Assembly (NCBI GenBank): GCA_944326525.1
Contig: CALVEG010000016.1
Coordinates: 1 to 35,623 of the forward strand
Source: Candidatus Gastranaerophilales bacterium
Lineage (GTDB): Bacteria > Cyanobacteriota > Vampirovibrionia > Gastranaerophilales > Gastranaerophilaceae
Length of the DNA stretch: 35,623 nucleotides
Direction of reading: 5' to 3'
Shown: piece by piece, positions 1-35,398 of the stretch
Numbering within the stretch: position 1 is the first letter of the stretch
Layout: each line of letters starts with the position of its first letter
Translations under genes and position numbers: made by a program
The notes under the pieces: model-generated
Database searches by the model: none
What the model was told of the DNA's origin: nothing
What the model saw: only the letters and a program-made list of their open reading frames with translations

Positions 1-144
1 AGGTGCTTCAGATCCCTTAGGTGCTTCAGATCCCTTAGGTGCTTCGGGTCCCTTAGGTGCTTCAGATCCCTCAGGTGCTTCAGATCCCTTAGGTGCTTCA
101 GATCCCTTAGGTGCTTCAGATCCCTTAGGTGCTTCAGATCCCTC
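1..144. repeat. 18-bp tandem repeat inside a coding region
   Basis: Eight consecutive copies of AGGTGCTTCAGATCCCTT (plus-strand reading) run from the window edge, differing at few positions (one copy has CGGGTC, two end in CTC). Three degenerate 9-bp half-units follow at 145-171. The unit is a multiple of three, so copy-number change would lengthen or shorten the minus-strand protein without a frameshift. The near identity points to recent expansion or homogenisation. More copies may lie beyond the edge. Confidence 0.95.
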
Positions 145-531
145 AGGTCCTTCAGGTGCTTCTGGTGCCTCTGGAGTATTTGTGTTTTTAATTACCACGC
201 CCATCGCTTCGTAAATCTGCGCGGTTTCTTCTGCTGTAAAACTTATTTCTTGATTAGGATGTACTACAAAGCTGTTATGCCATCCGGCACGTGTTTTATC
301 TGTTCCGCCTCCAAAGATTGATGCTTTTCCTTGTGCTTTCCTGTTATTTTGCAGTTCTACAAGCTTATCTAATACGGCATTCCACTCTTTCAGCGTAATT
401 TTTCCGTCGGTTAATTCTGCTTTTTTCTGCTTGATTAAATTGTCTACAGCATCTTTTAAGGCATGTGTTATACCTTTATCCTTCTTAATCTTAATAGTAA
501 TAGCATCTACGCTTGGCACATTCTCACTCAT
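1..531 (-). CDS. Repeat-tailed protein of unknown function, C-terminus cut off by window edge
   Basis: I do not recognise a named family. The ATG at 531-529 follows a good ribosome binding site (AGGAG at 539-543 on the minus strand), and the frame stays open for 177 codons to the edge, so the C-terminus is missing. Residues 1-118 look globular, with no signal peptide or membrane segment. They align with the first ~105 residues of the protein at 33611-34798: the same order of a TIKIKKDKGIT-type start, a (K)LT/ITLKEW helix, a GGG/GGS turn and a final FTAEET..I..AMGV segment. Residues 119-177 are low-complexity, a hexapeptide G-S-E-A-P-K/E repeated, i.e. alternating collagen-like GSE and APK triplets. 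The tail suggests an extended stalk or spacer; that is inference. A CTTTATATA motif lies about 40 bp upstream. Confidence 0.85.
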   Translation of the reverse strand, partial: MSENVPSVDAITIKIKKDKGITHALKDAVDNLIKQKKAELTDGKITLKEWNAVLDKLVELQNNRKAQGKASIFGGGTDKTRAGWHNSFVVHPNQEISFTAEETAQIYEAMGVVIKNTNTPEAPEAPEGPEGSEAPKGSEAPKGSEAPKGSEAPEGSEAPKGPEAPKGSEAPKGSEAP

Positions 532-30229: not shown

Positions 30230-31180
30230 ATGTCATACGGAATGATTGGATTTAATAACTGTTATTTGAACGGGCTTGGCCTAGGCAGTTGTTTTGGCTC
30301 TTTTAGCCCTGTTTTTTCGTATTCATATTATAATCCGTTTTGTTCTTTTAATATTTTCCCGACGTTATTTAACACAAGTTGGATGATGCCATCATTTCCG
30401 ACCGTTTTTTCTTTTTACAGTAATAATACTTATAACAATGCTTATAATAACAATTACCAATTTCCGCCAATAACTGCCCCAAGCAGTTTTCCTACAAATT
30501 TTGATAGCCTAAACAGTAATTGGAATTTGTATAGTTTTGATAATAATTCAAAAAATGATTATTCTAATGTTTTTGGTGCTATTACTGCAAAAACAAGTGT
30601 TGCTAATAATTTAACAAAACCTATTTCTTATAATTATTCTTCTACTCCAAAATATTCTACTCTTAGTAATGATTATTTGAACAAGGAGTTTTTGAATAAG
30701 GTTAAGCAAGTTGCAAAAAATATTAATTGTGACTATGAAGATTTACTTGCGTTAATGAATTCAGAATCGAGTTTAGATCCTACAGCGGCGCACAAAAATA
30801 AAAACGGAGAAAAGACAGCAGTTGGTCTGATACAGTTTACAAAAAGTGCTGCAATTCCTGAATTGAACAAAGTTTACGGGCTAAATTTAACATTGGAAAA
30901 AATCGAAAAAATGAGTGCTTTAGAGCAGCTTGATTTAGTTGAAAAATATTATAAGATGAATGCTAATAAGTTGCCTAAAGGTAAAAAACTTACAGCTGCA
31001 GATCTTTATGCAGTGACATTTCTTCCAGCAAGAGCAAAAAAAGAAGTTTTAACAAGAAGCGGAGAAGACTACTATAAAAGCAATAAAGGTTTGGATGTAA
31101 ACAAAGATGGCGCTATTACTAAGTCTGATTTGAATGCAAGACTTGCTCAAAAACGTGTAAATCTTAATACTTTTGCTTAA
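30230..31180 (+). CDS. Lytic-transglycosylase-like protein with N/S/Y/F-rich N-terminus and EF-hand-like end
   Basis: The first ~145 residues are low complexity, rich in N, S, Y, F and P, with no classical signal peptide. Residues ~154-282 resemble soluble lytic transglycosylases, including those on phage tail proteins: the catalytic-type glutamate E179 in LMNSESSLDPTA, AVGLIQFT (198-204, family form GLMQ), the MSALEQLDLVEKYY helix, and ADLYAVTFLPAR. The end has an EF-hand/dockerin-like loop D289-x-N-x-D-G-x-I-x-x-x-D300. The module is shared with the protein at 33611-34798. Peptidoglycan cleavage is inferred from motifs only. The route of export is unclear; it lies directly upstream of minCDE. 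Confidence 0.8.
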   Translation: MSYGMIGFNNCYLNGLGLGSCFGSFSPVFSYSYYNPFCSFNIFPTLFNTSWMMPSFPTVFSFYSNNTYNNAYNNNYQFPPITAPSSFPTNFDSLNSNWNLYSFDNNSKNDYSNVFGAITAKTSVANNLTKPISYNYSSTPKYSTLSNDYLNKEFLNKVKQVAKNINCDYEDLLALMNSESSLDPTAAHKNKNGEKTAVGLIQFTKSAAIPELNKVYGLNLTLEKIEKMSALEQLDLVEKYYKMNANKLPKGKKLTAADLYAVTFLPARAKKEVLTRSGEDYYKSNKGLDVNKDGAITKSDLNARLAQKRVNLNTFA

Positions 31181-31332: not shown

Positions 31333-32205
31333 ATGGATAAGGGATATATTGAAAACGGTTTTATCGTTGACTTAAGCAACGCCAAAAAAACATCCGAAAT
31401 TATTTATGAGTTAAGCAGAATTTTGGATTTGCCAGAAGCAAAAGATAAGAATGTATGTCTTAAATTAGGGGAAGTTAATCTTAATCAGTCGCAGCTTATT
31501 AGTGTAAAAGCTTTGATTGAATCAATGGATAGCAATTTGGCTTTTATATCAACAATTAATGAAGAAACCAAAAGTTCAGCAGAAACTTTAGGCATAGCTT
31601 TGATGGAATTTGAAAATACTGTAGAAGCTCCGGAATTTAAGGAAGATGGAACTCCAGAAACTGAAGTTAATCAGGAGTTGGAAAGTGCTTTAGATAAAAT
31701 TTTTGGAGAAGGCGATTTTGAAGAAAGATATCCTGAAGAAGAAGACATAAAAGAGGAAATCAGATCAGATTCCGAAGTTGAGCAAATAGATTTTGAAGCA
31801 GATGAAGAAACGATTTCAGAAATAAAGAAGCAGATGAAAGAAGCAGAAAAGCTTCCTACATTATATATACAGAGAACTTTGCGTTCAGGGCAGAGTTTAA
31901 AGTCAGAAGGAAATATAGTTATAATAGGCGATGTGAACCCCGGCGCCGAAGTTATTGCAAAAGGCGATATTACAGTATGGGGAGTTTTGGGCGGAATTGC
32001 ACAGGCAGGATCAGACGGAAATAATTACTCAAGAATCCGTGCTTTGAAACTAAATGCGATTCAGTTGAGAATAGGTGAAATTTTTGCCCGCAGACCGGAC
32101 ACTGTGAATGTACCCTACGTTCAAAAAACGGATTCTTTTATCCCGGAAGAAGCAAGAGTCAGCCGAAAACATATTGTCATTTATAAATTGCATGAAGCTT
32201 CTTAA
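31333..32205 (+). CDS. minC: Septum site-determining protein MinC
   Basis: It inhibits FtsZ ring assembly away from mid-cell when recruited by MinD. The 290 residues have an N-terminal FtsZ-inhibitory-type domain (about 1-95), a long acidic linker (about 96-175, many E and D), and the C-terminal beta-helix (about 178-272) with TLYIQRTLRSGQSLKSEGNIVIIGDVNPGAEV and GDITVWGVLGGIAQAG, which dimerises and binds MinD. The acidic linker is longer than in typical MinC. GGAAGGATAAG precedes the ATG. It is first in minC-minD-minE. Confidence 0.94.
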   Translation: MDKGYIENGFIVDLSNAKKTSEIIYELSRILDLPEAKDKNVCLKLGEVNLNQSQLISVKALIESMDSNLAFISTINEETKSSAETLGIALMEFENTVEAPEFKEDGTPETEVNQELESALDKIFGEGDFEERYPEEEDIKEEIRSDSEVEQIDFEADEETISEIKKQMKEAEKLPTLYIQRTLRSGQSLKSEGNIVIIGDVNPGAEVIAKGDITVWGVLGGIAQAGSDGNNYSRIRALKLNAIQLRIGEIFARRPDTVNVPYVQKTDSFIPEEARVSRKHIVIYKLHEAS

Positions 32206-32250
32206 GCTTTTGCAGAAGAATTAAAAGTAAAATAATCAAAAGGAGAAATA

Positions 32251-33066
32251 ATGAGCGGTCGAGTTATAGTAATTACTTCGGGAAAAGGCGGAGTAGGCAA
32301 GACAACAACCAGTGCAAATATAGGAACTGCTTTAGCCAGAGCGGGTAAGAAAGTCGTGTTAATTGATACCGATTTAGGATTAAGAAACCTTGACCTTTTG
32401 CTTGGGCTGGAAAACAGAATCGTATATACAATTGTGGATGTAGTTGAAGAACGCTGCAAGTTAAGACAAGCACTTGTAAAAGATAAGAAAAATCCGAACT
32501 TATGTCTTTTGGCAGCGGCGCAGACAAGAGATAAATCCGCAATTACACAAGAACAATTGAAAGATATATGCGAAGAACTTAAAAAGGATTACGATTTTAT
32601 ATTAGTTGATTGTCCTGCAGGTATTGAGCAAGGATTTCAAAATGCAATTGCCGGAGCAACTGAAGCAATAGTTGTTACGACACCGGAAATGTCAGCAGTA
32701 AGAGATGCTGATAGAATTATCGGGCTTCTTGAAGCAAAAGAAGAAATTCAGTCTTATAAACTATTGTTGAACAGGGTTCGTCCAAATCTTATTAAATCAA
32801 ATGATATGATGAGCGTTGAGGATGTTGTTGAAATTTTGTCAGCGGACTTAGTTGGTATAATTCCTGAAGATACCGGTATCATAACATCAACCAATAAGGG
32901 TGATCCGATAGTAAATGATGATAGTTCACTTGCCGGCAAGGCATACAATAATGTTGCAAGAAGAATAATGGGCGAAGATGTTCCTTTTTTGAATCTTGAA
33001 GAAAGCAGAGGAGTTCTTTCAAAAGTTAAGAAATTTTTCTCCGGCCTTATAGGAAAGGAGAAGTAG
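32251..33066 (+). CDS. minD: Septum site-determining protein MinD
   Basis: This membrane-binding ATPase oscillates or forms gradients with MinE and activates MinC. The 271 residues contain the deviant Walker A GKGGVGKTT (about 10-18), LIDTDLGLRNLDLLLGLENRIVYT, VDCPAGIEQGF, and the C-terminal amphipathic membrane-targeting helix VLSKVKKFFSGLIGKEK. AAAGGAG lies at a good distance. minE starts 1 bp after its stop, with AAAGGAG inside the end of minD. Confidence 0.97.
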   Translation: MSGRVIVITSGKGGVGKTTTSANIGTALARAGKKVVLIDTDLGLRNLDLLLGLENRIVYTIVDVVEERCKLRQALVKDKKNPNLCLLAAAQTRDKSAITQEQLKDICEELKKDYDFILVDCPAGIEQGFQNAIAGATEAIVVTTPEMSAVRDADRIIGLLEAKEEIQSYKLLLNRVRPNLIKSNDMMSVEDVVEILSADLVGIIPEDTGIITSTNKGDPIVNDDSSLAGKAYNNVARRIMGEDVPFLNLEESRGVLSKVKKFFSGLIGKEK

Positions 33067-33067
33067 A

Positions 33068-33538
33068 ATGAGGGATATATTTCAGGACTTGTTTAATAAA
33101 GTCTTCGGCTTTTTCCGACAGGCAGAAAAGGAAGAAAATGCAAAAGAAACAGCAGTAAATCGTTTACGAGTTGTTCTTATGCAGGACAGAACCAATTTAA
33201 CACCTGAGCTTCTTGAGAAGATGCGCGGTGAGCTTATAGAATTGCTTTCAAAATACGTGGAGATGGACAAAGATGCATTAGAACTTAATTTCGAACAAGA
33301 AGGAAATCAAATGGCGTTAATGTTATCAATTCCTGTATTGAGAGCAAAAGATGAAGATGAAATTGAGGCAGAAGAATCTGAAAATTCTGAAGAAGCAGAC
33401 GAAAACGCAGAGGAAGAAATTTCAGATGCCGAAAAATCTGAGGATTCTGAAAATGCTGAATCTACAGATGAAGAAAATCAGGATGAGCAATACGAATCAG
33501 AAGAATCTAATACCAACTCAAAAGATAAATCAAAATAA
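33068..33538 (+). CDS. minE: Cell division topological specificity factor MinE with long acidic tail
   Basis: It stimulates the MinD ATPase and confines MinCD to the poles. The first ~92 residues are a normal MinE: an amphipathic N-terminus (MRDIFQDLFNKVFGFF), the MinD-contact helix AVNRLRVVLMQDRTNLTPELLEKMRGELIELLSKYV, and a beta-strand topological domain ending in MALMLSIPVLR. Residues ~93-156 are an extra tail almost entirely of E, D, S, N and K, absent from the ~90-residue MinE proteins I know. The reading frame and the terminator after it are intact, so the tail is not an obvious sequencing artefact. Its function is unknown. Confidence 0.94.
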   Translation: MRDIFQDLFNKVFGFFRQAEKEENAKETAVNRLRVVLMQDRTNLTPELLEKMRGELIELLSKYVEMDKDALELNFEQEGNQMALMLSIPVLRAKDEDEIEAEESENSEEADENAEEEISDAEKSEDSENAESTDEENQDEQYESEESNTNSKDKSK

Positions 33539-33610: not shown

Positions 33611-34798
33611 TCAGACAACAACTACATTAACTCTAAAGTCATCGAGCTTTGCAAGAACATCGGCTCTGGTTATAATTCCATCATTACCCACATCAATACC
33701 TCTATTTGATTCGTAGTAATTTAGGAGTTTACCATTAGAATTAGTTTCTCCTGCTTTGCATAAAATATCTTTGCCGGCACGAGCCGGAAGAATGATTGCT
33801 GTATATAAATCAGCAGCATCAATATTTTTCTTGTTGCGAAGTCGTGGAATTCTTGAAATACACATTTTCAGATATTTGCCGACAAGATCAATTTGCTCTT
33901 CAGCACTCATAGCCGTGATACTCTCTTTTGTTAAGTTTAGCGAATATGTTTTATTTAAATCTTTAATGGCTCTATTTGTAAATTGAATAAGCCCAACGGC
34001 TTTATTTTTTTTGCCAGCCCCTTCTTTTGGGTTCATTCCGCTTTCGAAGTTTATAACAGTAATAAGGTCTTCGTATTTACAATGAAGCTCATCTGCTAAT
34101 TGCATAATTTTTGTATGAAGTTTGTGAGAAATTGTTCTGGTTTTACCGCCAAGTCCTCCTGGTTTAGGTGTTTTAATTTCAAACGGTGGCGCCAAGTTAA
34201 TTGTATCAGAAGCTGCAGTTACAATAGTTGGAGACATCGATTTTTCCATTTCGTCAAACCGTGCAGCCATATAATTTATAAAAGCGGAAGGTTCTTTTAA
34301 TTGTCCTTGCGCAGGTGAAAAAAGTCCATTATTAGGAGTGCTTTTCATTTTGTTCAAGGTATCGTTAACAGTATTTTCAAAGTTAGAAACTTGAGTGCTG
34401 TCAGGGGGATAAACTTCATTATTTTTTAAAGAGTCAATTGTAGAGTTTTTTTCGATTGATAACCCCATAATAGGTTTTTCCTCAGGAAGTTTAAGAGTAT
34501 CAGTTGTTTTAGATACCCCCATTTCTTTTAGAATTCTAGCCATTTCATCTTGGGTGAAAGTAATAGAATTTTTAGTAATTACAAAATTTTCGTTAATATC
34601 ACCGTAAAGGTTTGAACCACCTTGATAAATAGCATTTTCAGAAGATCTTTTGCTGTTAATTTCAGCGATAATTTCCATTGTTTTTTGCCATTGTTTAGAG
34701 GTTAATTTAACATCTTTCCCGCCGTTAATAGATTTTGCATAATCAGTAAGGATGTAAGTAAGTCCTTTATAATTGGTATCTATTTTAATATCGCCCAT
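33611..34798 (-). CDS. Lytic-transglycosylase-like protein with conserved novel N-terminal domain
   Basis: The 395 residues form three parts. Residues 1-105 match the N-terminal domain of the repeat protein at 1-531 (IKIDTNYKGLT, KLTSKQW, FTQDEMARILKEMGV). Residues 106-222 are a linker with S, T, N, P and a GGLGGK turn. Residues ~226-395 match the C-terminal module of the protein at 30230: E252 in INFESGMNP, AVGLIQFT (267-274), AEEQIDLVGKYLK, ADLYTAIILPARAG, and an EF-hand-like loop D369-VGNDGIITRA-D380. No signal peptide is visible. AAAGGA supports the ATG. It is not an operon partner of the Min genes, which converge on it. Peptidoglycan hydrolysis is the likely activity, by inference. Confidence 0.82.
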   Translation of the reverse strand: MGDIKIDTNYKGLTYILTDYAKSINGGKDVKLTSKQWQKTMEIIAEINSKRSSENAIYQGGSNLYGDINENFVITKNSITFTQDEMARILKEMGVSKTTDTLKLPEEKPIMGLSIEKNSTIDSLKNNEVYPPDSTQVSNFENTVNDTLNKMKSTPNNGLFSPAQGQLKEPSAFINYMAARFDEMEKSMSPTIVTAASDTINLAPPFEIKTPKPGGLGGKTRTISHKLHTKIMQLADELHCKYEDLITVINFESGMNPKEGAGKKNKAVGLIQFTNRAIKDLNKTYSLNLTKESITAMSAEEQIDLVGKYLKMCISRIPRLRNKKNIDAADLYTAIILPARAGKDILCKAGETNSNGKLLNYYESNRGIDVGNDGIITRADVLAKLDDFRVNVVVV

Positions 34799-35080: not shown

Positions 35081-35398
35081 ATGGCAAGCACAAAAAGACA
35101 AAGAATCAGAGTTTGTTTAAAGGCATACGATCACAAATTGATTGATGTATCTTCAGACAAAATCGTAGAAACTGCAAAGAGAACAGATGCAAAAGTTGCA
35201 GGCCCGATTCCTTTACCGACCAAAAGACGTATATATTGCGTACTTCGTTCACCACACGTAGATAAGAAATCACGTGAGCATTTCGAATTAAGAACGCACA
35301 AACGTATAATAGATATATACGAACCGACTCAACAGACAACTGAAGAGTTAAGTAGATTAGATTTACCGGCTGGAGTAGATATTGAAGTAAAACTTTAA
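35081..35398 (+). CDS. rpsJ: 30S ribosomal protein S10
   Basis: A component of the small-subunit head that also serves as NusE in antitermination. The 105 residues match the family: [57 protein letters not shown], and a C-terminal [20 protein letters not shown] precedes the ATG. It begins an S10-type gene cluster with rplC downstream, but 200 bp with their own promoter-like box and RNA structure separate the two, which is unusual because they are normally close together. Confidence 0.98.

Follow-up and report, generated by a model that had tools for sequence, protein, structure and literature searches.

Organization of the locus

The window analysed here is a single contig (C16) of 35,623 nucleotides from the 1.95-Mb genome (G000) of a Candidatus Gastranaerophilales bacterium. 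It carries two genes encoding a shared N-terminal domain (hereafter N-domain), one of which also encodes a lytic transglycosylase (LT) domain (N-LT), and a second LT gene, P0001, on the other side of minCDE (Table 1). The names given to the min genes, rpsJ, groEL and other neighbours are family-level assignments. The 395-residue N-LT reading frame lies on the minus strand, the plus frame being full of stops, and its ATG is preceded by a Shine-Dalgarno-like AAAGGA; in both N-domain genes of the window such a site lies directly 5' of the domain. Between the two domains of N-LT, the structure model has pLDDT below 50 for most of residues 120-169 and 188-217. The data derive from MAGs, and some N-domain proteins, the window's repeat protein among them, are cut at contig ends.

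Table 1. Features of the window discussed in the text
Feature	Position	Strand	Remarks
N-domain + LT protein (N-LT), 395 aa	33611..34798	minus	convergent with minE
N-domain, residues 1-110	34469..34798	minus	helices 13-24 and 34-50 (conserved W), GG turn, strand 79-82, helix 83-92; from alignments and models
Linker, residues 111-215	34154..34468	minus	low confidence for the most part; one predicted helix, 171-188
LT domain, residues 216-395	33614..34153	minus	phage-tail-LT type; putative catalytic Glu252 (NFES); AVGLIQFT at 267
N-domain + GSEAPK repeat protein	1..531	minus	cut by the contig end; start at 531 backed by AAGGAG
N-domain of the repeat protein	151..504	minus	profile match E = 3.5e-47
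P0001, second LT, 316 aa, without signal peptide	30230..31180	plus	immediately 5' of minC
P0001 N-terminal low-complexity region	30230..30664	plus	N/S/F/Y-rich: 24 N, 23 S, 16 F and 14 Y per 145 residues
P0001 LT domain	30665..31177	plus	putative catalytic Glu179; AVGLIQF at 197
minC (31333-32205), minD (32251-33066), minE (33068-33538)	31333..33538	plus	flanked by both LT genes
rpsJ (ribosomal protein S10)	35081..35398	plus	right-hand neighbour of the N-LT locus; conserved

Two window proteins share an N-terminal domain

A search of the genome with the 395-residue protein returned exactly two relatives, both within the window: one at 30503-31165 on the plus strand, matching query residues 170-392 (45% identity, E = 1.3e-37), and one at 157-480 on the minus strand, matching residues 10-107 (34% identity, E = 9.2e-7). 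A preliminary description, made from the letters of the window, had aligned the first ~105 residues of N-LT with the N-terminal part of the protein running from 531 to 1, and its C-terminal part with that of the protein at 30230-31180. Both similarities withstand shuffling. The N-domain alignment scored 114 (maximum of 5000 shuffles, 65, none being as good) and the C-terminal alignment with P0001 scored 354 (maximum of 3000 shuffles, 62). Profile-profile comparison of eight LT-type N-domains with 86 others gave a probability of 99.7% (E = 1.1e-25), and each predicted secondary-structure element of one window domain has its counterpart in the other (LT protein, H13-24/H34-50/E79-82/H83-92; repeat protein, H16-29/H42-62/E90-93/H95-105). 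These comparisons argue firmly that the two N-domains are homologous.

The same description had grouped the three proteins into one modular family. The pairwise relationships are real, but P0001 has just the LT half in common with N-LT and lacks the N-domain: its N-terminal region scores 26 and 33 against the N-domain, the same as shuffles, and is unrelated. The repeat protein does carry the N-domain, but its supposed GSEAPK stalk is a fragment, because the contig end truncates the gene; relatives run on into RHS-like repeats.

Distribution and novelty of the N-domain

Profile searches found the N-domain in 20 of 59 relatives and in 82 of the 288 genomes (16 of 41 genera) of one Gastranaerophilales family. 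In a class-wide draw, 56 of 240 genomes carried it, and among the matches listed all came from that family. The genomes of relatives contributed about 100 members beyond the window's own. The domain has no sequence match in Pfam, NCBIfam, PHROG or the PDB. A phage, plasmid or viral origin was considered and rejected, the domain not being found in collections of any of the three. We regard it as a so far unnamed small domain.

For the N-domain of the repeat protein, the AlphaFold model (pLDDT 81, pTM 0.68) gave no Foldseek match and, in VIA, nothing above Z 2.4, and fold searches of the PDB and BFVD returned nothing below E 0.5, an outcome that is no proof of a new fold. Identity with LysM, which a start like 'KxGxGIT', an end like 'VHPGQxI' and a helix-helix-strand order might suggest, was rejected on sequence evidence: the Pfam LysM profile matched none of 22 N-domain members at E 10, and hhalign against a LysM from relative G046 gave 0.6%. 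The N-domain model runs strand-helix-helix-strand with extra elements and has no PDB match, and the LysM fold is b-a-a-b; we leave open a likeness that would be at most a distant fold resemblance.

An N-terminal position, no signal peptide and interchangeable cargo

The N-domain starts no more than 25 residues into the longest reading frame in about nine in ten complete proteins. By hydropathy, the measure used here in place of SignalP, a hydrophobic N-terminus is absent from all 92 complete proteins; their top 12-residue N-terminal value was 1.62, versus 2.65-3.08 in five signal-peptide controls drawn from the same loci. This bears out the earlier remark that a classical signal peptide is lacking. 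A TM-like stretch occurs in only 2 of 101 proteins.

The C-terminal parts of these 101 distinct proteins fall into 27 similarity groups, several of which are single truncated proteins, and no C-terminal region is common to all cargo clusters. Counted per distinct protein found, relatedness ignored, the cargo comprises phage-type LTs (8), Slt-type LTs (5; PF01464 at 3.3e-26 in the one scanned), YkuD L,D-transpeptidases (2; 4.3e-12 and 1.1e-11, with an S-N-G-C-V/I motif), a pair that may be lysozyme-like (2; assigned by eye, the motif in one), a CHAP-like domain (1; 1.9e-4, below cut-off), an HExxH cluster that belongs to no Pfam family and has HEANH in 10 of 10, a weak calpain-like match (1), RHS/DUF2963 repeats (26) and EF-hand proteins. 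The proposal of a new N-terminal domain paired with differing C-terminal modules thus stands in its essentials. At the level of sequence, these data establish that the N-domains are a single homologous family, located at or close to the extreme N-terminus, and that their cargo, several predicted wall enzymes included, is interchangeable.

The lytic transglycosylase domain is exchanged at a conserved minCDE locus

The focal LT scores 21.8 bits against Pfam SLT PF01464 (cut-off 21.3) and the P0001 LT 23.6 bits. The SLT superfamily hallmarks are present in the focal LT, namely the catalytic glutamate (putative Glu252) and a G-L-x-Q motif within AVGLIQFT. Foldseek matched the modelled domain to 9udh (E = 5.4e-6), and VIA-align placed the same bacteriophage lytic transglycosidase first (Z 14.4 over 146 residues, 3.6 Å, 27% identity), followed by phiKZ gp144 and MltE (Z about 10 for MltE). 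The peptidoglycan-lyase module of the preliminary description therefore has a lysozyme-like LT fold, and sequence and model agree in making residues 216-395 a lytic transglycosylase and putative enzyme. The EF-hand-like loop noted there is not a feature apart; an equivalent stretch is found in 9udh, and it is therefore part of this LT type. PHROG matches were to baseplate-hub and large virion proteins (phrog_196, 4.3e-15). The domain thus resembles phage tail and virion LTs in both fold and sequence, but it sits in a chromosomal, host-conserved gene beside a host-specific N-domain, and of the focal protein the LT domain alone looks phage-derived.

Genomes of the window's genus repeat the order nudix, P0001-type LT, minC, minD, minE, convergent N-LT, rpsJ, and the P0001-type LT is retained immediately 5' of minC in at least four further genera. 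The aromatic/Asn-rich N-terminal regions of P0001-type orthologues are highly variable, being of GYYGGYYGG type in some. In genus g51, where minC, minD and minE follow one another in the same order, the slot between minE and rpsJ/rplC is again occupied by a convergent gene for an N-domain protein, but one with an Slt-type LT. An N-domain tree of 107 columns places the 13 LT-bearing proteins in one clade (99/100) made up of two sister groups, across which the N-domain is 47% identical and the C-terminal parts score 46, which is chance level. The address was thus retained while the enzyme was swapped: gene position and N-domain are conserved between genera and the predicted LT domain is exchanged, which makes the locus a clean test case of modularity provided by nature. 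A partner gene common to the N-domain loci was sought and rejected, since the recurrent neighbours (groES/EL, min, the ribosomal operon, cysteine synthase) mirror orthologous loci.

A second flagellar-type export apparatus in the order

The genome has two operons of flagellar export genes, FliE-FliF-x-FliH-FlhA and FliM/N-FliO-FliP-FliQ-FliR, and FliE, FliF, FliH, FlhA, FliO, FliP, FliQ and FliR all exceed their Pfam cut-offs; FliI is present in the apparatus operon of relative G046. By Pfam, FHIPEP occurs in 58 and FliP in 57 of the 59 relatives, and flagellin in 29. Among the 20 N-domain-bearing genomes the counts are 20 for FHIPEP, 19 for FliP and one for flagellin. Flagellin (PF00669) is found in none of 14 genomes of the window's genus, 13 of which have weak rod-type matches (PF00460).

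Nearly all flagellin-bearing genomes have FlhA and FliP in two copies each. In the FlhA tree these copies form two clades (100/100), with 36% identity between them and 67-91% within the second, and the FlhA of our genome falls in the second, apart from the flagellar FlhA that coexists with it in flagellated relatives. The apparatus genes retained by non-flagellated members are therefore those of a second system, not decayed flagellar copies. A third FlhA-like gene, at L193:7302-8777 (minus) on contig C5 of the same genome, encodes about 490 residues whose match to FHIPEP is confined to its cytoplasmic half (positions 321-653, 166 bits), without the membrane half; it is present in most genomes of the order.

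Secretin was found in 36 of 36 genomes tested, adjoining PilB/PilC-like genes by eye. A T4SS route was dismissed, the T4SS ATPase VirB4 occurring in 0 of 59 relatives.

Proposed function and alternatives

We propose that the N-domain is an addressing or delivery module for proteins that lack Sec/Tat signals and act outside the cytoplasm, a reading we hold to be somewhat likelier true than false; the pattern suggests a new way to address proteins outward. In the focal protein, the N-domain would carry the polypeptide across the inner membrane, and the exported enzyme would then cut glycan strands of peptidoglycan. Its place beside minE hints, speculatively, at a role around division.

The most likely exporter, tentatively, is the second, flagellin-less flagellar-type type III apparatus, the link being circumstantial. 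This apparatus is near-universal in the order and is also found in genomes without the N-domain, so its presence does not discriminate; for the same reason, a test of joint gain of N-domain and apparatus proved uninformative and was abandoned. N-domain genes are scattered outside the apparatus operons. In relative G046 (L205:3951-6354), tandem EF-hand proteins adjoin fliPQR, one of them with an N-terminal LysM (2.8e-6) and without a signal peptide, and in relative G031 a repeat-type protein adjoins fliF; these neighbours point towards the apparatus and prove nothing. A structured domain within the first residues is atypical for a type III signal and counts against this route; residues 1-10 of the focal protein are predicted to be disordered. 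In the fullest version, the N-domain would be what a flagellum-derived secretion system, the second FlhA/FliP apparatus, recognises; this system, near-universal in gut Gastranaerophilales and retained after the loss of motility, would export a polymorphic repertoire of wall enzymes, repeat proteins and peptidase-like proteins, either into the gut or onto cells nearby. We find this version conceivable but on balance doubtful.

The strongest alternative, which we judge unlikely, is that the N-domain comes into play after export, as a module for anchoring or assembly that binds the wall or surface or oligomerises, with export by another signal-less route such as type I/TolC. The window does contain an RND pump with a TolC-like protein, the repeats, EF-hands and P/E/A/T-rich linkers of some cargo resemble surface proteins, and in one relative a true LysM occupies the equivalent N-terminal place; yet the cargo clusters share no common C-terminal region, and P0001 has an LT of the same kind without either N-domain or signal peptide. 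We give still less credence to cytoplasmic proteins that reach peptidoglycan only at cell lysis, in autolysin-like fashion, with an intracellular role for the N-domain. The lack of signal peptides and the scarcity of TM-like stretches would fit, as would solitary genes beside housekeeping genes (groEL, minE, the ribosomal operon), but such a role makes it hard to explain repeated independent pairing with two LT types, an L,D-transpeptidase and, weakly, CHAP. Delivery by a phage-tail-like particle or prophage, with the LT as tail lysozyme, had been raised in the preliminary description and accords with the phage-like LT, but is very improbable given that the contractile sheath (PF04984) is lacking in this genome and present in only 4 of 20 N-domain-bearing relatives, that the minCDE/rpsJ neighbourhood is fixed across species, and that the phage, plasmid and viral collections hold no N-domain.

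Comparison with known systems

Delivery by the N-domain would have a partial precedent in FlgJ, a dual-domain protein that combines a flagellar rod cap with a peptidoglycan hydrolase. FlgJ leaves the cell through the flagellar type III apparatus and has no signal peptide. The two functions of FlgJ and its type III export have been described (PMC8517470). Like FlgJ, N-LT joins a non-enzymatic N-terminal module to a C-terminal wall enzyme, has no signal peptide and is encoded in a genome with flagellar-type apparatus genes. Unlike FlgJ, its N-domain has no match to the Rod-binding (FlgJ N-terminal) Pfam family and bears many other cargoes, and the gene lies at minCDE, away from rod genes.

The delivery domains of polymorphic effectors (LXG, MIX, PAAR) likewise combine a conserved N-terminus with interchangeable C-terminal cargo and no signal peptide. 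In contrast to these, the N-domain matches no Pfam or NCBIfam model, and the settings differ: this genome encodes no contractile sheath, and all relatives tested lack a T4SS ATPase. Immunity genes were not seen beside N-domain genes.

Gastranaerophilales of the gut, relatives of cyanobacteria, are uncultured and common in animals. As a marker of many signal-less, secreted-looking proteins, the N-domain offers a handle for listing their exported proteome. Incomplete flagella gene sets in several Gastranaerophilales have been taken as loss (Soo et al. 2014, PMC4040986). Our genomes agree in having flagellar export genes and an incomplete flagellum, though the gene sets may differ. Unlike the loss reading, however, the retained FlhA is a paralogue coexisting with the flagellar FlhA in flagellated relatives, which suggests that what look like 'partial flagella' in their non-motile kin could represent a second, intact system and not a relic.

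Other signal-less proteins

The idea that small signal-less proteins share a recurrent 'NxxFxG' tag at the N-terminus was considered and rejected, the motif count not exceeding that at control positions. At L193:5191-7251 (minus), a 4-alpha-glucanotransferase-like protein carries an extra Ser/Thr-rich N-terminal tag, MRVTGINSQIHSQSTTFGRR, and several small proteins in relatives start much alike (MQITNQKNTSFTG, MRIENSSNTNFQA). On contig C1 of the window's genome, signal-less proteins starting with MGMAASQARYLGLTARKTNVEYEGQQINQ are encoded 5' of the fliE-fliF operon (L191:8730-10298 and the left end of L190). One of them has a coiled-coil-like C-terminal end, and such proteins might serve the second export system as axial-type substrates.
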